Positions 2,324 through 10,725 of a stretch of 42,209 bases of DNA are shown here, piece by piece. Source of the stretch: a virus; the IMG/VR virus record IMGVR_UViG_3300048592_001399, positions 1 to 42,209 of that record; one strand, 5' to 3'. Every line of letters begins with the position of its first letter. Position 1 is the stretch's first letter. A program made the position numbers and the translations under genes. The notes below the pieces were generated by a model that was not told the origin of the DNA, ran no database searches, and saw only the letters and a list, made by a program, of their open reading frames with translations.

Positions 2324-3328
2324 TCACTTGCCCTCGCCCTTCCTTAACCGCTTCAGCAGGTCCGACACCGGCGTGCGCATCTTCGCCATTGGGTTGGCCC
2401 GGTCTGATTCGCGAGTCAGCTTGCGCGTGGCCAGGTGGGTGTAGATCTCCGTGCTCTTCGGGTCGGCGTGGCCCATCAGCTTCTGGCGCACCAGGAGATC
2501 GACGTCGCCCTCGGCCAGCTCGGTTCCGTAGAGGTGGCGCAGCGCGTGCGGGTGCAGCTGCTCTTCAGGGATCCCGGCGCGGCGGCCGTGGCGGGCCACC
2601 AGATCGATCACCGCGCGGCGGTTCATGCGCCGGCGCTCGCCGTGGTATTCGTGCGGCGGGCAGGTGCGGTTCCTGGTCGACACGAACAGCACCTTGTCGC
2701 CGCGGCCGATCTCGCGGTCGATCTCCTTCAGCTCCGGGTGCTCGAGATACAGCCGCAGCAGCAGATCCGCCTCCACCGGCACCGGGATCGCCCGCGTCTT
2801 CTTCCCTTTCTCCTCCACCCGCAGCAGCATGCGCGGCTTGCCGTCCACCTCTTCCTGCACCAGGTTGCTCTCGTTCAGGCTCACCAGGCCGCTCGCCCGC
2901 AGGCCGCAGCCGATCAGCATCCCCAGCATCGCGCCGTCGCGCACCCCCTCGAACGTCTCGAAGTCCGGCGCCCACATCAGCCGCTCCGCGTTCGCCAGCG
3001 TCATCAGCCGCGGCAGCCGCTTCGCCGCCCTGGGGTAGCTCACCCCCTCCGCCGGGTTCGTCTTCATCCGGCCCGACCGGCGCAGCCAGGCGTAGAACTC
3101 CCGCACCGCCGCCACGTGCGTCTTGCGGCTCGCCGGATCCAGCCCCTGCTTGTGCAGCCACGGCCCCGTGAAAGCCAGCAGCTCGTCCGTCGACGCCCGC
3201 AGCGGATCAGCCCCCGCCAGAAACACCTCCAGCCGCCCCAGCGCCAGCCCGTACACCTGAGCCGTCCTGGCCGACCGCCCTTGGTTAGACTGCTTGAAGG
3301 CCAGAAAGCCCTCGATCAGATCGCGCAT
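2324..3328 (-). CDS. Tyrosine recombinase (XerC/D-like integrase)
   Basis: A 334-aa tyrosine recombinase with a SAM-like N-terminal DNA-binding domain (residues 1-95) and a C-terminal catalytic domain. The catalytic residues are visible: R144 (GCGLRASG), K174 region (EEKGKKTR), H261-x-x-R264 (HPHALRH), H287 (MGHAD) and Y296 (STEIYTHL). ATG 3328 follows GGAAGG at good spacing and starts where the family normally starts; an extra 34 codons upstream read through the repeat-rich region and are not needed. It lies directly downstream of the iteron-like region, so a role in dimer resolution or a local recombination reaction is plausible. Integration itself is better assigned to the serine integrase at the att site. 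Confidence 0.92.
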   Translation of the reverse strand: MRDLIEGFLAFKQSNQGRSARTAQVYGLALGRLEVFLAGADPLRASTDELLAFTGPWLHKQGLDPASRKTHVAAVREFYAWLRRSGRMKTNPAEGVSYPRAAKRLPRLMTLANAERLMWAPDFETFEGVRDGAMLGMLIGCGLRASGLVSLNESNLVQEEVDGKPRMLLRVEEKGKKTRAIPVPVEADLLLRLYLEHPELKEIDREIGRGDKVLFVSTRNRTCPPHEYHGERRRMNRRAVIDLVARHGRRAGIPEEQLHPHALRHLYGTELAEGDVDLLVRQKLMGHADPKSTEIYTHLATRKLTRESDRANPMAKMRTPVSDLLKRLRKGEGK

Positions 3329-3360
3329 TTCGCTACCTTCCAAAGTACCCCCAGGCATTT

Positions 3361-3730
3361 CTTGCCGTGGATCCGTGGATCGCCCCATTTCGCCACATAA
3401 GCCATTGATATACAAGCAAAACACTTCCACGGGTTTCCACGGAAAACCCGTGGAACCCGTGGAAAACCCGTGGATGAAAAAATAGGCAGTTGTTCAAACC
3501 CGTGGATAAGCGTTCCCTGATTTACCTCACTGCCTTCTCTTTCTTCTTCTTTCTTATCAATTGGATAGAGAGAGAAAGAAAGCGTGGAGCCGAAAACCCT
3601 ACCCGTGGAAAAAACAGGTGAAACCGTGGAAAACGGAGGTAGACCCGTGGAAAACGGAGGCCGACCCGTGGGACCAACCGCTTCAGGAATCAAGGACTTA
3701 GCATCAAAAACACTGATGATCCACGGGTTA
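3361..3730. other. Iteron-like repeat region, putative replication origin
   Basis: This 484-base gap between genes (3329..3812) has no convincing ORF. It holds about twelve copies of a CCGTGGA motif, often as ACCCGTGGAAAA, mostly in one orientation with a few inverted (near 3426, 3436 and 3719). One copy, 3499..3509, reads as TTATCCACG on the other strand, one base from a DnaA box. Between the two repeat clusters lies a pyrimidine-rich then purine-rich AT-rich tract (3535..3583), unusual in this GC-rich genome and a possible unwinding element. Iterons plus an AT-rich tract suggest an origin; a recombinase-binding or transcription-control array is the alternative. Confidence 0.5.
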
Positions 3731-3812
3731 GCGCGACCATGCCCCCCAACCTTTTTGGCAAACCGCCGCGGGCAAAAAATTTTTTGGGGTGCGGGGTGCG
3801 GGATGGAGAGGG

Positions 3813-4256
3813 TCATGCCTTCGGCCCCGGCAACAGATTGGAGGTCTGCGCGTGCTCGAGCACCGTCTTCCCGTTCGGCAGCAGCATCTGCCCCAGGAAC
3901 GCCCCCTCGAAGGTCAAGATGCCCGTCTCGATCGCCGTCACCTGGCCCTTGATCCAGTCGCGCAGGATCGAATAGACCGCCACGCTGGCGATGTCCAGCG
4001 CCTTGCGCTCGTGCTCGACCTTCGTGCAGCGCGTGCGGTGGCTGTATGGGTGCTCCTTCAGCCATGCCATCGCATAGCCGCGGATCGACGCCTTCACGCT
4101 CACCGGCTGACTACGGTATTCGAACTGCACCATGATCTCCTGCGCCTCGTCGTCGATCATGCTGCCGAACCGTGAGCAGCCAAAGCCGCGCAGCAGCTTC
4201 TGGATCTCGCCCAGCGCGCGCTCTCCGCTGGTGGTGTTTTCGTATGGGAGCGGCAT
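3813..4256 (-). CDS. Conserved phage protein, unknown function
   Basis: A 147-aa soluble protein without a recognisable domain name. It resembles small phage proteins often found near replication or recombination genes, with conserved-looking stretches GYAMAWLKEHP and RDWIKGQVTAIETGILTFEGAFLGQMLLPNG. Its ATG overlaps the stop of the integron integrase gene (TGATG), so the two are translationally coupled in one leftward operon. Function unknown. Confidence 0.8.
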   Translation of the reverse strand: MPLPYENTTSGERALGEIQKLLRGFGCSRFGSMIDDEAQEIMVQFEYRSQPVSVKASIRGYAMAWLKEHPYSHRTRCTKVEHERKALDIASVAVYSILRDWIKGQVTAIETGILTFEGAFLGQMLLPNGKTVLEHAQTSNLLPGPKA

Positions 4257-5230
4257 CAGGCGGTCCTCCTGGTTATCTGTTCGAGCGGGCTCGTCACGCC
4301 CGCCGCGCCACGCTCCGCCACGTGCGTGTAGATCTGCGTCGTGCTCACGTCGGCATGGCCAAGCAGTTGCTGGATGGTGCGGATGTCGGTCCCCGACTCC
4401 AGCAAATGCGTGGCGAACGAATGCCGCAGGGTGTGGGCGCCCAGGCGCTTGGTGATCCGGGCCGAGATCCGTGCCGCCCGCAGCGCCTTCGACACGGCGG
4501 TATCGTGGATGTGGTGCCGGCGGAGCTCGCCGGTGCGCGGGCAGGGGCCAATCTTCGATGCTGGGAAAACATACTGCCAGCCGAATTCCTGCGCCGCGCG
4601 CGGGTACTTGCGTTCGAGCGCGTGCGGCAGGTAGACCGATCCGTAGCCGTTGGCGAGGTCGCGGGTGTGCATGCGTTTCACGGCCTCAAGGTGATGGCGC
4701 AGCGGCTCGGCCACGCTGTCCGGCAGCATCACTGCCCGGTCCTTCGCCCCCTTGCCGTCTCGCACGGTGATGATCCGGCGCGCGAAATCGATGTCCTGCA
4801 CGCGCAGCGACAGGCACTCGGCCAGCCGCAGGCCGGCGCCGTAGAGCAGCGCGGCGATCATCCAGTGCATGCCGGTCATATGGGAGAGCAGGCGCGCCAC
4901 CTCGTCGCGCGACAGCACCACCGGAAGATGGCGCGGCAGGCGAGCCGGATGGAACCCAGAGAAATCACCGACCTCCTCCTGCAGCACCTGGCGGTAGAGG
5001 AAAACGATCGCGTTCAGCGCCTGGTTCTGCGTCGACGCCGACACGTCGCGCTCGCGCGCCAGGTGCGTGAGGAAGCCGCGCACCTTGTCCTCGTGGCTGC
5101 CGCCCGGATTGTCGCGGCACCAGTAGGCGAAGCGACGAATCCAGCCGAGATAGGACTTCTCGGTCTTGTAGGCCATGTGCTTGAAGCGCAGCACGTTCCG
5201 CGCGGCCTCGATGGTCTGTGTCAGGTTCAT
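4256..5230 (-). CDS. intI: Integron integrase (IntI family tyrosine recombinase)
   Basis: A 324-aa tyrosine recombinase that would recombine attI and folded attC sites to capture or excise gene cassettes. Catalytic residues are R135, K160, H266-x-x-R269, H292 and Y301. It carries the insertion that separates IntI from XerC/XerD: residues 204-224 (ALERKYPRA...WQYVFPA) followed by RRHHIHD. The C-terminus GAAGVTSPLEQI is also IntI-like. The gene looks intact and full length. It is transcribed leftward with the phage operon and overlaps the next gene by one base. The ATG at 5230 has only a weak ribosome site. Only 32 bases separate the start codon from the first cassette crossover, so attI must be short or extend into the gene. 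Confidence 0.95.
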   Translation of the reverse strand: MNLTQTIEAARNVLRFKHMAYKTEKSYLGWIRRFAYWCRDNPGGSHEDKVRGFLTHLARERDVSASTQNQALNAIVFLYRQVLQEEVGDFSGFHPARLPRHLPVVLSRDEVARLLSHMTGMHWMIAALLYGAGLRLAECLSLRVQDIDFARRIITVRDGKGAKDRAVMLPDSVAEPLRHHLEAVKRMHTRDLANGYGSVYLPHALERKYPRAAQEFGWQYVFPASKIGPCPRTGELRRHHIHDTAVSKALRAARISARITKRLGAHTLRHSFATHLLESGTDIRTIQQLLGHADVSTTQIYTHVAERGAAGVTSPLEQITRRTA

Positions 5231-5268
5231 GTGATGGTTGCCTGTAGGCTTATGAATCTCTGTTATGC
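5231..5268 (+). other. attI-like insertion point upstream of intI
   Basis: The core GTTATGC (5262..5268) marks the start of cassette 1; crossover is expected between G5262 and T5263. The sequence just left of it, GGCTTATGAATCTCTG, resembles the right arm of attC2 (GCTTAGCTCTGCG). A clear inverted L box, as in known attI sites, is not evident. Confidence 0.55.
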
Positions 5269-5999
5269 GTCAAAAGTCGCCATGCGCTTGCTGCCACGCA
5301 TGGAACCTGTCCGTTGCCAATGGCGCGCAGTTGGTCCATCCGCTTGGCCACCCCATCAGAGTCAATCGGAATTTCACCGACCGCACCAGGTCCGGGCGGC
5401 CAATGTCCACAATCTGGTCGCACAAGTTGGCTACGTGAAGCCGCCCATTCTTGCCGCGCTTGATCCGGTTTCCCTTGCCGCTCTGCCCCTTGCCGTCGCG
5501 CGTCGTTGGCGTCTGCCAATATCCAAATTCGCTCCCGGTGCTGCGGGGCGCCAAGTGCGTCTGCTCCAAGCACTCCCCATCGCGCATCGAACCCCATCTC
5601 GGCCAAGTCTCCGAGAACTCGTCCAAGCCCTCGATCAACGAGCATTGGCGAGTTCTCCACGAACACGAATCGCGGTTCCACTTCGCGAACGATCCGGGCC
5701 ATTTCCAGCCACAATCCGCTGCGCTCGCCGTCGAGTCCGTCGCCTCTGCCGGCGATGGAAATGTCTTGACATGGGAACCCCCCTGACACAACATCAATTC
5801 GCCCGCGCCAAGGCTTGCCGTCGAAGGTTCGCACGTCGTCCCAGATCGGGAAGGCTGGCAGCAGTCCGTCGCGCTGCCGGGCAAGCAGCACGCTTCGGCA
5901 GTAGGCATCAAGCTCAACAGCGCATCGGGTGCGCCAGCCAAGCAAGTGCCCTCCCAAGATGCCGCCTCCTGCCCCTGCAAAAAGTGCCAACTCATTCAC
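5250..5999 (-). CDS. C5-cytosine DNA methyltransferase (cassette 1)
   Basis: A 249-aa phage-type DNA (cytosine-5) methyltransferase, probably protecting phage DNA from restriction. SAM-binding motif I is FAGAGGG (7-13), the catalytic loop is GGFPCQ with C77, ENS is at 115-117, a QRRxR-like motif is QHRER (153-157), and motif X is AIGNGQVP (227-233). The target-recognition region is short compared with Dcm-class enzymes, as is usual for this phage group. The start is GTG 5999 after AAAGGACGG. The gene is reversed within cassette 1, and its last codons (after H-N) run across the cassette boundary into the intI-side flank, so the final residues would change in a free cassette. A second frame overlaps it almost completely. 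Confidence 0.92.
   Translation of the reverse strand: MNELALFAGAGGGILGGHLLGWRTRCAVELDAYCRSVLLARQRDGLLPAFPIWDDVRTFDGKPWRGRIDVVSGGFPCQDISIAGRGDGLDGERSGLWLEMARIVREVEPRFVFVENSPMLVDRGLGRVLGDLAEMGFDARWGVLGADALGAPQHRERIWILADANDARRQGAERQGKPDQARQEWAASRSQLVRPDCGHWPPGPGAVGEIPIDSDGVAKRMDQLRAIGNGQVPCVAASAWRLLTHNRDS
5255..5264 (+). repeat. 10-bp direct repeat flanking cassette block, left copy
   Basis: AATCTCTGTT here and at 7371..7380 bracket the whole block of cassettes and the 94-aa gene. The repeat ends exactly at the GTT crossover trinucleotide in both places. Confidence 0.6.
5270..5995 (-). CDS. Overprinted protein inside methyltransferase gene
   Basis: A 241-aa reading frame in the +1 frame over almost the whole methyltransferase gene, starting at an ATG four bases after the GTG and able to share its ribosome site (GTGAATGAG). 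Its C-terminal half has sequence that I recall as recurrent next to phage cytosine methyltransferases: FSETWPRWGSMRDGEC, a WQTPTTRDGKG stretch, and LMGWPSGWTNCAPLATDRF near the end. A stop-free frame of this length with recognisable motifs argues for a real overlapping gene, possibly a partner or target-recognition subunit. Expression is not proven, and GC-rich DNA does produce long spurious frames, so the motif recall is the main support. Confidence 0.6.
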   Translation of the reverse strand: MSWHFLQGQEAASWEGTCLAGAPDALLSLMPTAEACCLPGSATDCCQPSRSGTTCEPSTASLGAGELMLCQGGSHVKTFPSPAEATDSTASAADCGWKWPGSFAKWNRDSCSWRTRQCSLIEGLDEFSETWPRWGSMRDGECLEQTHLAPRSTGSEFGYWQTPTTRDGKGQSGKGNRIKRGKNGRLHVANLCDQIVDIGRPDLVRSVKFRLTLMGWPSGWTNCAPLATDRFHAWQQAHGDF

Positions 6000-6050
6000 T
6001 TCCGTCCTTTCAGGCGCCGTGTCACCAGCGCCGACTTTTGTACCGTTGCC

Positions 6051-6118
6051 GCATAACACGGCGGTCGAGCTGACCTTGCGCAAGAAGCCGCGCAAGTCAG
6101 CTCACCTCAGCGTTGGCC
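6051..6118 (+). other. attC1 recombination site
   Basis: A 68-bp attC site. The R'' box GCATAAC (6051..6057) is the exact reverse complement of the cassette-1 start GTTATGC at 5262; the R' box is GTTGGCC (6112..6118). The arms form a stem GGT-[C]-GAGCTGAC-[C]-TTGCGC paired with GCGCAA-GTCAGCTC-ACC, leaving two unpaired bases, C6066 and C6075, on one strand: the extrahelical bases typical of folded attC. The UCS-like spacers and the 8-base loop are normal for short attC sites. Confidence 0.9.
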
Positions 6119-6125
6119 GTCTTCA

Positions 6126-7025
6126 TCACGCGAACAGCCCATGCTGTTCGTCGTGCGCTTCAGCCGTCGCTGTTTTCAGTGAACGGTTGTATTCCTCGAA
6201 TGGTGCGCGCTTCCATACCCAGCCGTTCGCCCAGCGTGCTACGTCTTTCAACTTCTGCGCCGTCCAGTCGTGGCGCACCCAAGGCTCCTTGGTTAGCGCA
6301 TTTAGCTTCATTACCGGCTGCACATGGGGTTCGCATCCAGCCGCGATCACTTCCTTAATCCGCTCCATGCACTCGCCATATGGTTCGTTTCCAACCAAGA
6401 CATAAACCCTCTTCCGGCTCGATTTTTCTCCGTCAAGCATTTTCATCACCCGCAGCACTTCGGCGCGTTCCTTTGTCTCGTCGTAGGCAAACCGCCACGG
6501 GCCGCGCCCTGCATTCACCAGTGGCGCCCAGCGTGCGTAAACATCGGGCGTGAAGGTCTGAGGCTCAAAACCAGAATTAGCATCGAGCAGTGGCACGCCG
6601 GAAGCGTGGTAGCGGTCAATGATGTGCTGCTGATAATCGGCAGGAAGCGCAGAAATATTGTTGTCGCAGAGAATGGGTCGCGGAGTGAAATCCGGGATGA
6701 ACGTAAATTCCTTCCCTTCCATTGCAGGGACAATGCAAAACCCACAACCAACTGGGCAACCGCGGCTGGCAAACGTCGCCATCGGATTGTGCCTTGTCAC
6801 CGCCTCCGGGTAGTGGGTGCCTATCTCCGCAACGTCCGCCAGAACGTGCTTCATCTTCACCAGAAACAGGGCGGGGCCTCCAGCAACAACACGCTTACCG
6901 AGCGTTTTGGCAAAGAGCGCCATTGAGTAGGCGCGATCTAGCTCCCAGGTGAATGCTGCCGACAAATAGAACGTGTCGCCTTCCTCCCAGGTTGCCAAAC
7001 CACCAATCCACTTTCCTTTAACCAT
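6126..7025 (-). CDS. Radical SAM domain protein (cassette 2)
   Basis: A 299-aa protein with a radical-SAM iron-sulfur motif C90-x3-C94-x2-C97 (RGCPVGCGFC), followed by a glycine-rich SAM-binding region and LLDANSGFEP, consistent with a partial TIM barrel. The N-terminus (WIGGLATW, VVAGGPAL) resembles the start of B12-binding-type radical SAM proteins but is shortened. Substrate unknown; DNA, tRNA or protein modification are all possible. ATG 7025 has GGAG five bases upstream; ATG 7028 and GTG 7031 are in-frame alternatives. The gene fills cassette 2 and is reversed in it, with its start next to attC2. Confidence 0.85.
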   Translation of the reverse strand: MVKGKWIGGLATWEEGDTFYLSAAFTWELDRAYSMALFAKTLGKRVVAGGPALFLVKMKHVLADVAEIGTHYPEAVTRHNPMATFASRGCPVGCGFCIVPAMEGKEFTFIPDFTPRPILCDNNISALPADYQQHIIDRYHASGVPLLDANSGFEPQTFTPDVYARWAPLVNAGRGPWRFAYDETKERAEVLRVMKMLDGEKSSRKRVYVLVGNEPYGECMERIKEVIAAGCEPHVQPVMKLNALTKEPWVRHDWTAQKLKDVARWANGWVWKRAPFEEYNRSLKTATAEAHDEQHGLFA

Positions 7026-7050
7026 CATCACTCCGTAGTAACCACCATCC

Positions 7051-7119
7051 GGCCAACCAGGCGCTCAAGCGCGACCTTCGCGGCTATCGCCGCTCAGGCC
7101 GCTTAGCTCTGCGTTGGGC
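7051..7119 (+). other. attC2 recombination site
   Basis: A 69-bp attC site. The R'' box GGCCAAC (7051..7057) is the reverse complement of the cassette-2 start GTTGGCC at 6112; the R' box is GTTGGGC (7113..7119). The arms pair as GCT-[C]-AAGCG with CGCTT-AGC, leaving C7066 extrahelical. An inner CCT/AGG pair and a GCGGC-TATC-GCCGC hairpin follow. CTCAAGC...GCTTAG is the usual look of the L''/L' region. Confidence 0.9.
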
Positions 7120-7349
7120 TCGCCCGTTAGCTCTACGCTGTGCACCAGTTCAGCCTGAATCCGTGCGCGCAGTTCGTGTGGCATTGTGATGTACTGAGCG
7201 ACGTCCCACGCCTTGATGTCGGCTATCAGCGCGCGCATCCGCTCGATCTCATCGGCCTGCTGTTGCAGCACCAGCGCCGCTTCCCTCGCGTAGTCGCCAT
7301 AGGCCGGTATCTTGTCTGCCAGCCAGTAGGCTCTGTCTTTGCCCTTCAT
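7065..7349 (-). CDS. Small helical protein reading into attC2
   Basis: A 94-aa protein; ATG 7349 has a strong AGGAGCGAAG leader. The N-terminal two thirds (YWLADKIPAYGDYAREAALVL, then QQQADEIERMRALIAD) are helical and resemble small phage proteins of unknown function. The last ~20 residues (AELSGLSGDSREGRA) are simply the attC2 stem read as codons, so the C-terminus was acquired when the site arrived. It may be a phage gene truncated by cassette insertion or a third, reversed cassette whose own attC is lost. Confidence 0.75.
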   Translation of the reverse strand: MKGKDRAYWLADKIPAYGDYAREAALVLQQQADEIERMRALIADIKAWDVAQYITMPHELRARIQAELVHSVELTGEPNAELSGLSGDSREGRA

Positions 7350-7370
7350 TCTTCGCTCCTGTTCTGGCCC

Positions 7371-7380
7371 AATCTCTGTT
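7371..7380 (+). repeat. 10-bp direct repeat flanking cassette block, right copy
   Basis: Second copy of AATCTCTGTT, five bases from the stop codon of the primase-helicase gene. Preceded by GGCCC, giving GCCCAAT: one base off the R'' box expected for a cassette starting GTTGGGC, but with no attC stem. Confidence 0.55.
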
Positions 7381-7384
7381 GATC

Positions 7385-10126
7385 TCAATGCCCATACCCC
7401 TCCCGCTCCACACTCGGCCCCGCATACAGCCCGTACAGCCCCAGCTGCTCCATATCGATTCCCACCAGGTGGGCCTCGCGGCGGCCGCGGATGGTCTTCT
7501 CGAACTCCCGCGACCGGCCGTCGTGGTCGGACACCAGCACGCCCGCCTCGGTCAGCTGGCGCTTGAACACCCGGTCGCTCTTCACCGGCAGCGCGTTCCA
7601 TTTGTCGCGCAGGCTGTTCGTGTGGGCGATGTGGTCCATCACGTGGCTCGTGCGCACCAGCAGCACGTCGTGGCCGTTGTCCGTGTCCCAGGCGAAGGGG
7701 TGGCGGTAGTTGCCGGCCGAGATCTCGCTGAGCAGGATCTCGAGGATCCACACCCACGGCTCGCGGTCGGCCACCGTCTCGCTCACATGCTCGTTCATCA
7801 CCGCCATCACGTCGGTCTCGAAGCCGCCCATCGCGTGGTCGGCCCCGGCGAACTCGCACAGCAGCCGCCAACATGTCACCAGCGCCGCGTAGTTGCCCGC
7901 CATGCGCTTCGCGCCGTCGTCGTTGCGCGCGCGGCTGTGGTCCTGGCAGTGGCTGCGCAGCTCGTTGTACGTCTGCATCACCTGCGCCTTGTTCAGCGTC
8001 GTCAGGAACTCCAGCCACTGCCGCACCGGAAAGGCCGGCAGGTCGTCCGGCATCATCGGGCCCTTGTCCTTCAGCACCGTCTGCACCACCTTGCCCAGCA
8101 GGCTGCGCACCGGCACATCCTCGCCCGCCAGCAGCACCGGAGCCGAGAGCAGGTATTCCGTCATGTCCGAGCCGCGACGGCTGAGGGTGTACTGGTAGTT
8201 CTCCTGCAGCATGCCCACCGCCTTGTCGATGATCTCCTGCTTGCGCGCCGAGAGTTCCTCCCAGCCCACCGGGTGCGACGTGTGGCTGATCGACGTCAGC
8301 AGCCTGAACTCGGTCTGCAGGCTCTGGCCAGAAAACATCGTGAATGCGATCGTCCGCTCCAGCCGCTTCACCAGCGTGGATTTGCCCGCCCCCTTGCGCG
8401 CCTGCAGGATCATGTGGGGCCAAAAACCCAAAAAAACCTTCAAATGCCCGCCAAGGGCCCAAACCAGGGCAAGGAGCGCCGCATTGCGTTTGAACGTGGT
8501 TTGATATGCCTGCATCACTTTTAACGCATCCTGACGCGATCCAGCGGGGAAGGTCAGATTGTGGTACGGGCACTGCTTGTCCGGCTCCGTGAAATAGCAG
8601 TCCGGCCCCTCGTTCACCGTCAGCGCGCCGTTCTTCCACGCCAACCCCACGAAGTTCACCGCGCTGCGCGCACCCAGGTGCGCCGTCCGCTCCAGGATAT
8701 TCACCATCCGCAGGAAATTGCTCTGGTCCCACACCGGGCCGAACTTCTTCCACTGGTCGATGTTGTGCAGCTTCTCGTCCTCCAGCACCCGGCGCAGCAG
8801 CTTCGGCCCGTGCCGCGGCGCCTGCACGCTCACCGCGAACATCACCGTCGGCTGCGCGTCCGCGTCGCCCGTCATCACGCTCGTCGCGCCGGCGATCGAC
8901 ACCCGCGACACCGACGCCACCCGGAACCCAGCCAGGTCCTTGAAGATCGGTGTTTCCGTCCCCGCCTCCTCGTCCTTCTTCACCTCCGTCACGATCGACG
9001 TGAAATCGTCCTTCACCCGGTAGCGCCAGTAGCGCGCGAAATCGTGGCCCGGAAGAAACACCCGCGGCCGCCCCGGCGCATCGCTGCTGCCCGGCAGCCC
9101 CTGGATCAGCCAGGGCTCCACCTTCTTCAGCGCCAGCCCCAGCTCATAGGCCCCCTGCGCCTGCAGGAAGTCGTTCAGATCGTTCACCTCCCACTCGCTC
9201 TGGTCCACCAGCATCGACGCGATGTTCAGCCCGATCAGCAGCTCGTGCAGCAGCCACGCCGCCTCCGGCCCCGGCCGGTGGCCCGCCTTCTGGTGTCCAT
9301 CGGGAAAAGGCTCATCGTTGTCCATGCAGATCAGCGCCCGCTTGCCCGCCAGCCAGCGCCAGTCGATCGCCCCCACATTCAGCCCGCGCACCGCAAAGGC
9401 CGCATAGCCCGGCAGGTTCGCCGTCTCCACGCTCAAGGCATTGATCGGGCTCTCGCACACCACCACCGTGTGCGCCGAGCGCAGCCGCTTGATGTCGCTC
9501 GTCCACCCGTAGCCGAACTTCTCCCCCTGCGTCTGTGTCTTCACCCCGCCATTCAGCGCCGGGTCCAGATAGCGCATGTCCACCGCCACCACATGCCCAG
9601 GGTTCAAGGTGCGCACGATGAACGCCGCCGCCGGTCCCCCGTGGCCAGGTTCCCCCTCCGGCGCCTTCGGGCTGCGCCAGTCGTTGAAGCCCACGCTGCC
9701 CTTCTCCATCGCTCGCCGCGACACCGCCTCAGCGATCCCGCGCCCCGTCAGATACTCCAGCGCCGGCAGTCGGTTCTCCAAGCAACGGTCCGCGATGTAC
9801 TCCACCGTGCTCTTTGGCCGCTGCGGCTCCGCCGCCGCCTGCCGTTCCAGCGGCCAGCCATACAGCTCGTGCAGAAACCGCACCGCCTCCCCCGGCTCCG
9901 CGAACCCCTTCACATACATCACCAGATCGATGCACGACCCGCCCGCGTCGCCGCTCCAGTCCTTCCACGCCTTGCCGCTGTTGAAAATCGACAGGCTCGG
10001 GCTCTTGTCATCGTGGGCCGGAGAATGCCAGTTCGCCTTCTCCCCGCCCTTCCCCCTGCGCATTCCCAGCTTCTCCGCCAGATCGTGCAGATCGATGCGC
10101 TGCTTCAGTTCATCTATCGACGCCAT
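7385..10126 (-). CDS. Primase-helicase (toprim plus P-loop ATPase)
   Basis: A 913-aa bifunctional replication protein. The N-terminus (residues 30-70, HSPAHDDKSPSLSIF...WSGDAGGSCIDLV) has the CHC2 primase fold signature, but the zinc-binding cysteines are largely replaced. A toprim-like segment follows: VVVCESPINAL (221-231) and ALICMDNDEP (264-273), giving the acidic residues expected. The C-terminal ATPase has Walker A G579-A-G-K-S-T and an acidic GWEE motif further on. It would prime and unwind DNA at the phage fork. It is the largest early gene and heads the leftward block leading into the integron. The start ATG 10126 has a weak ribosome site. Confidence 0.9.
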   Translation of the reverse strand: MASIDELKQRIDLHDLAEKLGMRRGKGGEKANWHSPAHDDKSPSLSIFNSGKAWKDWSGDAGGSCIDLVMYVKGFAEPGEAVRFLHELYGWPLERQAAAEPQRPKSTVEYIADRCLENRLPALEYLTGRGIAEAVSRRAMEKGSVGFNDWRSPKAPEGEPGHGGPAAAFIVRTLNPGHVVAVDMRYLDPALNGGVKTQTQGEKFGYGWTSDIKRLRSAHTVVVCESPINALSVETANLPGYAAFAVRGLNVGAIDWRWLAGKRALICMDNDEPFPDGHQKAGHRPGPEAAWLLHELLIGLNIASMLVDQSEWEVNDLNDFLQAQGAYELGLALKKVEPWLIQGLPGSSDAPGRPRVFLPGHDFARYWRYRVKDDFTSIVTEVKKDEEAGTETPIFKDLAGFRVASVSRVSIAGATSVMTGDADAQPTVMFAVSVQAPRHGPKLLRRVLEDEKLHNIDQWKKFGPVWDQSNFLRMVNILERTAHLGARSAVNFVGLAWKNGALTVNEGPDCYFTEPDKQCPYHNLTFPAGSRQDALKVMQAYQTTFKRNAALLALVWALGGHLKVFLGFWPHMILQARKGAGKSTLVKRLERTIAFTMFSGQSLQTEFRLLTSISHTSHPVGWEELSARKQEIIDKAVGMLQENYQYTLSRRGSDMTEYLLSAPVLLAGEDVPVRSLLGKVVQTVLKDKGPMMPDDLPAFPVRQWLEFLTTLNKAQVMQTYNELRSHCQDHSRARNDDGAKRMAGNYAALVTCWRLLCEFAGADHAMGGFETDVMAVMNEHVSETVADREPWVWILEILLSEISAGNYRHPFAWDTDNGHDVLLVRTSHVMDHIAHTNSLRDKWNALPVKSDRVFKRQLTEAGVLVSDHDGRSREFEKTIRGRREAHLVGIDMEQLGLYGLYAGPSVEREGYGH

Positions 10127-10308
10127 TCAAAAGGCCCAGTGTTGTCTCGGATCGGCTATTACCGCCTTGCCAGTGTTTTCGTTGCCGGCGATCCTGGTTT
10201 GCTCATGCCGTCCCCCTGATGAGTCCACGGGAGGGAAAGGCTAGAGAGGTCGGTCGTACCCGGGTAGCCGTCCCGGGAGAAAGGAGATCGCCCCCGCCGT
10301 TGAAACCG
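10127..10308 (-). other. Leader of primase-helicase gene with hairpin
   Basis: A 182-base gap between the 138-aa gene and the primase. It contains a perfect stem CCCGGG...CCCGGG (10259..10264 with 10272..10277, 7-base loop) and a 15-codon ORF starting with ATG near 10207. No T run follows the stem, so it is not an obvious terminator; a leader structure or attenuator is possible. Confidence 0.35.
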
Positions 10309-10725
10309 TCACCCGGTCGCGTAGACCACATCCGGCGTGCACGCAAAGCGCACCCCGGATCGATGCACCAACCGCCACACCAGCTGCGCGCTCCCCCGCA
10401 GCCGCATGAAATCCAGCGTCCAGCCATCCCGCGCCAGCGCCGCCAGCGCCATCACCCGCGGCCCGTACCGGTCGCCATCGAAATCGAACGCATGCTCAGC
10501 CCCGCGCTCGGACCTCAACACCTCGTCAACCTCGTCCCACGGCACCGGGCACCCGTCCACCAGCCCCGACAGATCCCCCGCCGCCCGGTACATCGGCACC
10601 AGCAGCACACTCCCATGCAGCGCCGCCACCACATGGTCGAACGCCCGATACAGCCGGCCGTCGCCGGAAAAGTTCGCCAGCCGCCCCGCGTCCACCAGCG
10701 GAAACATGTTCGGATGAGCCATCAT
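10309..10725 (-). CDS. Hypothetical early protein
   Basis: A 138-aa acidic-to-neutral soluble protein that I do not recognise. It starts directly after the stop of the winged-helix gene (TGAATG), so it is coupled to it. No catalytic motif, membrane segment or repeat is visible. A second in-frame ATG is at 10722. Confidence 0.7.
   Translation of the reverse strand: MMAHPNMFPLVDAGRLANFSGDGRLYRAFDHVVAALHGSVLLVPMYRAAGDLSGLVDGCPVPWDEVDEVLRSERGAEHAFDFDGDRYGPRVMALAALARDGWTLDFMRLRGSAQLVWRLVHRSGVRFACTPDVVYATG

Follow-up and report, generated by a model that had tools for sequence, protein, structure and literature searches.

Bacterial integrons store mobile genes pointing away from the integrase, and integrons are usually seen as bacterial devices dependent on the promoter Pc. 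In the virus sequence of 42,209 nt analysed here (IMG/VR record IMGVR_UViG_3300048592_001399; from here: the window), two cassette genes run towards the integrase gene intI. According to the original prediction, made from the letters of the window, the cassettes are in normal orientation as judged by their attC sites, their methyltransferase and radical SAM genes lie backwards in them, and both genes are co-directional with a leftward phage operon coming from the primase, suggesting expression by phage read-through instead of Pc.

Anatomy of the window integron

The integron is located inside a phage genome. Family matches identified a primase (phrog_5629), a J-like tail fibre, and portal-like, Mu-I-like and integrase genes. 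The primase gene (7385–10126, minus strand; phrog_5629, 1464 bits) lies upstream of the array and points in the same direction. Its product is 59–64% identical to those of the Burkholderia phages KS5, AP3, KL3 and Mana; KS5, AP3, KL3 and their relatives share this primase family with the window phage. Between the primase and a repeat-rich stretch at about 3424–3790 there is an insert consisting of intI, two cassettes and two more ORFs, all on the minus strand. In a relative with 88% primase identity (locus L030) the whole insert is absent, leaving an empty site, and a similar CCACGG-repeat-rich stretch follows directly after the primase. In the window, the repeat-rich stretch forms the end of the leftward row on the minus strand and carries terminator-like hairpins (3455–3425 and 3679–3659). 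Positions 3424–3680 within it contain tandem CCGTGGAA/CCACGG repeats, possibly an origin or operator region. A comparison with Rfam gave no match in the window.

None of the 40 primase-bearing viral loci had intI beside the primase at the window's position. A KS5-type primase gene (phrog_5629) was noticed directly downstream of intI in another locus (L113:10467–13250), belonging to a phage of a different IntI group; taken together with the window arrangement, intI has met this primase family at least two times. The integron is also adjoined by genes for a large serine recombinase (1–1641) and an Xer-like tyrosine recombinase (2324–3430), so that the phage encodes three different site-specific recombinases.

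The intI gene (4256–5230, minus strand) encodes a true integron-type tyrosine recombinase of 324 aa. It matches TIGR02249 with an E value of 1e-127 and 425.8 bits at a cut-off of 265, the tyrosine recombinase residues R135, H266, R269, H292 and Y301 are invariant in alignments, and the protein nests among IntIs in the tree. Its closest IntIs come from viral contigs (75% identity for L073, 63% for L233 and 62% for L074), and the best in the bacterial scan reached 57%. Next to intI, a putative attI was predicted from conservation at 5231–5268. It consists of the core box GTTATGC (5262–5268) and a conserved stretch of ~31 bp, and the ~38 bp site directly adjoins the start codon of intI; 32 bp separate the intI start from the core cut. 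Most of the 13 other members of the window's IntI clade have the arrangement RYATAAC|AGATATTNATNNGCC..GGCAAATAT immediately in front of intI, and the similarity across the clade stops at the core box on the cassette side.

All attC detection rests on one covariance model. Its 34 training sites come from other viral IntI loci, those of the window being excluded, and both window strands were scanned with it unfiltered. The training sites had been picked partly by a rule, extra bases on the L'' side, and the model was therefore checked on bacterial arrays, where the orientation is known. Across 80 loci it gave 203 hits, the best scoring 70.6 bits, and all but four were on the intI strand. The window contains exactly two strong sites, attC1 at 6051–6118 (41.2 bits, E 1.7e-8) and attC2 at 7051–7119 (46.0 bits, E 1e-9), both detected on the minus strand only, which is their bottom strand; the third-best match in the 42 kb had 12.2 bits. 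When single strands were folded, the extra unpaired bases appeared on the L'' side only with the minus strand as the bottom strand. Nearly all attC sites upstream of intI, bacterial as well as viral, lie on the intI strand. Because bacterial arrays likewise give matches on the intI strand, the orientation of the window sites is canonical, and both are in normal orientation relative to intI. A second attC pair was seen in L074 (1553–1903, minus strand), ~8 kb from intI and on the opposite strand, possibly a cluster without an integrase.

The cassette borders follow from the core boxes. GTTATGC at 5262–5268 is the exact complement of the R'' box GCATAAC at 6051–6057, and GTTGGCC at 6112–6118 that of the R'' box GGCCAAC at 7051–7057, which fixes two cassettes, both plus-oriented with their attC at the right end in normal orientation. 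Cassette 1 spans 5263–6112, with cut sites G|TT at 5262/5263 and 6112/6113, and cassette 2 spans 6113–7113, with cut sites at 6112/6113 and 7113/7114. The window thus has asymmetric attC hairpins with R''/R' boxes and cassettes bounded by core sites, as is expected of an integron.

Both cassette genes are reversed in their cassettes. Cassette 1 carries a C5-cytosine DNA methyltransferase gene at 5250–5999 on the minus strand (PF00145, E 1.2e-31). Its open frame extends from 5250 to 6095, with a likely GTG start at 5999 preceded by AAAGGA, and its stop (5250) lies past the core site, within attI. At least seven other phage integrons (L132, L241, L126, L143, L237, L113 and L129) have homologues of 42–66% identity in their arrays, again on the intI strand. 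Another minus-strand frame, 5270–5995, was rejected as the methyltransferase gene since it is without a Pfam match while the frame 5250–6095 matches PF00145. This overlapping frame does match phrog_1008 (DNA methyltransferase, E 6e-16) and two short unknown families, and is either a conserved shadow frame or an old frameshift. Cassette 2 carries a radical SAM protein gene at 6126–7031 on the minus strand (phrog_9298, E 2.3e-14), which starts ~20 bp from attC2; two other arrays, those of L096 (5738–6373) and L081 (194–787), contain homologues of it on the intI strand.

Two smaller ORFs flank these elements. The 94-aa open frame p94 (7065–7349, minus strand), between the primase and cassette 2, reads with its 3' end into attC2; it has no family match and no homologue in the other loci at E 1e-3, and may be either a phage gene or a third reversed cassette whose attC is not recognisable. 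The 147-aa ORF p147 (3813–4256, minus strand; phrog_17260, E 2e-12) overlaps the intI stop codon and is the last gene of the row; for this one, too, no homologue was found in the other loci at E 1e-3.

Together, primase, p94, radical SAM gene, methyltransferase gene, intI and p147 form, in this order, one tight minus-strand row with gaps of 35, 33, about 126 and 19 bp and the intI/p147 overlap. The original prediction was thus correct on the attC orientation, on the backward position of the two genes and on their co-direction with the leftward operon. Canonically, cassette ORFs point away from intI; both window ORFs point towards it. At the bacterial rate of reversal (5/94, see below) the chance of finding two of two reversed is p about 0.003.

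Orientation of cassette genes in viral and bacterial integrons

For comparison, IntI loci were taken from IMG/VR (viral) and from one genome per species (bacterial). Gamma- and betaproteobacteria are strongly represented in the bacterial sample, which was assembled by similarity to the window's IntI. The viral origin of most contigs is the IMG/VR assignment, with hallmark genes checked in ten loci; clear phage genes (major head, terminase, portal, tail, Mu-type transposase, primase) were present in several. Captured bacterial integrons of V. anguillarum phages were set aside. The interval counted ran from an attC to the next attC or to intI, and ORF strand was called by length and by codon score. 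These calls are heuristic, except those with family matches, and the ORF counts are those in which both criteria agree, de-duplicated at 90% IntI identity.

Counted this way, 5 cassette ORFs were reversed and 89 forward in bacteria, as against 13 reversed and none forward in the window IntI clade (Fisher, p 5e-13) and 60 reversed and 12 forward on other viral contigs, most of the 12 coming from two bacterial-type integrons. For all viral loci versus bacteria the Fisher test gave p 7e-31. The check that the original prediction had proposed, namely the ORF orientation in related phage integrons, could thus be made at the level of loci: by majority and after de-duplication, 41 viral loci were reversed, 2 forward and 2 tied, the opposite of the mostly forward ORFs that would have spoken against it, compared to 25 forward and 2 reversed bacterial loci. 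The window itself is one of the two ties because the codon score misjudged its methyltransferase, and homology settles it as reversed. Both forward viral loci have integrons of bacterial type: the IntI of L088 nests among Xanthomonadales-type IntIs in the tree, and that of Shewanella M16-3 is 95% identical to the one of S. oneidensis (PMC9892861).

The pattern of the window, with attC sites in normal orientation, reversed ORFs and co-directional upstream genes, recurs in dozens of other viral integrons. Upstream genes were on the intI strand for 92% of coding bases in viral loci, 87% in the clade and 49% in bacteria. The TAA in the R' box (offset +5) serves as the stop codon of 8 of 12 reversed ORFs in the clade and of 30 of 108 in other viruses; forward bacterial ORFs show the mirrored arrangement and end in R'' in 43 of 112 cases. 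Family matches among the reversed ORFs include N6_N4_Mtase (L091, L235), PAPS_reduct (L143, L083) and DHH (L133), and the same families, namely C5 methyltransferase, radical SAM and PAPS reductase-like, recur reversed in many phages. PAPS-reductase-like genes, for instance, were noticed repeatedly as reversed phage cassettes (L143:8675–9469 and L083:3709–4479).

Five further loci (L095, L094, L139, L151 and L020) resemble reverse-intI integrons: their array is downstream of intI and their ORFs are forward, co-directional with intI and the flanking genes. Since reversed upstream arrays and forward downstream arrays both end up co-directional, co-direction is common to the phage forms and is reached in two ways. 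Some observations count against the read-through explanation: the loci L131, L132 and L242 are of mixed orientation, and the virulent phage TJE1, which has an attC cluster and no intI, carries forward ORFs. In another cultured phage, Pseudoalteromonas phage H101, the attC matches are too weak for a firm orientation (E 0.06–0.12), although the neighbouring ORFs are reversed relative to them; phage P12002L gave no attC match.

Proposed expression from the phage operon and alternative explanations

We consider it highly probable, judging from gene order and sequence comparison, that the window harbours a phage integron whose reversed cassettes are read by the phage operon. The phage-borne integron would sit within the leftward replication operon, shortly after the primase gene. 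IntI, presumably still active, would use attC sites of ordinary geometry and recombine cassettes at the compact attI that touches the intI start codon. Each cassette has its gene reversed and preceded, not followed, by the attC. We propose that a newly inserted cassette is consequently added to a polycistronic row that phage transcription from upstream reads through: the primase, then the cassette genes, then intI. Pc would be unnecessary and intI would be on the same transcript. Forward cassettes would be antisense to the operon transcript, and we propose that reversed ones are kept for this reason, presumably by selection against antisense cassettes.

Such read-through expression instead of Pc is well supported by the anatomy and by the comparison. 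It is favoured because of the attC orientation, the tight gaps, the empty site in L030, the ORF counts and the upstream co-direction, together with the R' box stops, the conserved attI, the family matches and the phage hallmark genes. Because attI is short, lies at the intI start codon and loses its similarity at the core box, neither Pc nor a separate intI promoter would have much space there. A scan of both strands at 3300–10500 for sites resembling the sigma-70 consensus, the only class covered, found none where 1.4 were expected. The five co-directional loci with downstream arrays add to this, as does a report that, in vibrios, a promoter in antisense orientation is able to shut down the adjacent cassette (PMC11014356). 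A weak terminator-like hairpin within the radical SAM gene (6765–6742) counts against the read-through explanation.

The most serious alternative is that the reversal was inherited from one ancestral phage integron and cassette pool and not newly selected for read-through, which we regard as possible, if doubtful. The recurrence of the same reversed families in many phages would fit it. In the IntI tree (75 rows), 23 reversed viral IntIs form one clade (98/93) while the window clade is placed elsewhere (100/97 for 13 rows), so that the reversed IntIs fall apart in the best tree, at well-supported branches and with bacterial IntIs in between. Forcing all reversed viral IntIs into a single clade costs 25 log units and is not rejected (p-AU 0.08); hence repeated selection and one reversed ancestor are both compatible with the tree. 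The split in the best tree speaks against inheritance, and so does the different architecture, with the array downstream of intI, that arrives at the same co-direction. It is unlikely that the reversed genes have their own promoters and that orientation is irrelevant to expression. Some bacterial cassettes do contain promoters (PMC11014356), but the sigma-70 scan was negative and the radical SAM gene starts close to attC2. Moreover, if orientation were irrelevant, it should be mixed, and the cassette genes should not share the direction of the genes upstream; neither matches the counts.

The remaining alternatives question the orientation itself. The near-palindromic R''/R' boxes, and stop codons at the core box as in ordinary cassettes, could suggest that ordinary forward cassettes are present in an array inverted as a whole relative to intI, the attC orientation having been misjudged. 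We rejected this very improbable reading on the covariance model strand and the attI side: the model sees both window sites on the minus strand only, where nearly all bacterial and viral sites upstream of intI share the intI strand, the extra helix bases are on the L'' side, and the conserved attI separates the array from intI, its core turned towards the cassettes. Barely credible is an artefact of ORF calling by which long shadow ORFs on the intI strand were counted. The codon score alone did misjudge the window's methyltransferase cassette, but the same method yields 95% forward ORFs in bacteria, stops coincide with the core box, and the family matches, which confirm the reversed frames, largely refute it.

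Relation to known integrons

With the chromosomal and mobile integrons of bacteria, the window shares a true IntI, an attI-like site next to intI, the extra bases on the L'' side of attC and the attC orientation to intI. It differs from them in that the cassette genes point towards intI and not away, that attI abuts the intI start codon, and that intI is the near-last gene of a row, whereas bacterial intI is divergent from the array. In Spirochaetota-type integrons, intI is turned relative to the array and the ORFs are forward; they resemble the window in that intI and cassette genes are read one way. The window is nevertheless not of the reverse-intI type, since the attC bottom strand and intI are both on minus, the array is upstream of intI and it is the ORFs that are flipped. 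An intI in reverse orientation is typical of Spirochaetota according to PMC9668308.

Phage integrons have been described by Qi et al. 2023 (PMC9892861), who name Vibrio p16 and p42, P1, Shewanella M16-3 and attC clusters of virulent phages. As in the window, integron parts in phage genomes and methyltransferase cargo are found there; those with intI are captured bacterial integrons, and the paper covers a few integrons of cultured phages. Unlike the window, Shewanella M16-3 has 14 of 14 annotated cassette-region ORFs forward and an intI with a LexA site. Reversal of cassette ORFs is not reported in the accessible text of PMC9892861, and we found no prior report of systematic ORF reversal in phage integrons in the accessible open-licence literature.

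Phages thus seem to have rewired integrons, expressing captured genes, many DNA-modification enzymes among them, from phage transcription. It is likely that phages possess integron lineages of their own, with IntI groups apart from the bacterial ones, a pool of cassettes with attC before the gene and an expression built on the operon without Pc, in which two architectures satisfy one rule of co-direction. If true, a widespread phage form with cassettes matched to the operon would represent a gene-swapping platform for anti-defence genes, in which cassette orientation is shaped by the expression context. How cassettes arise is an open question, and such a pool bears on it: a route limited to appending attC behind a gene cannot yield cassettes in which attC precedes it. 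The phage cassette pool may also explain the rare reversed cassettes in bacteria.
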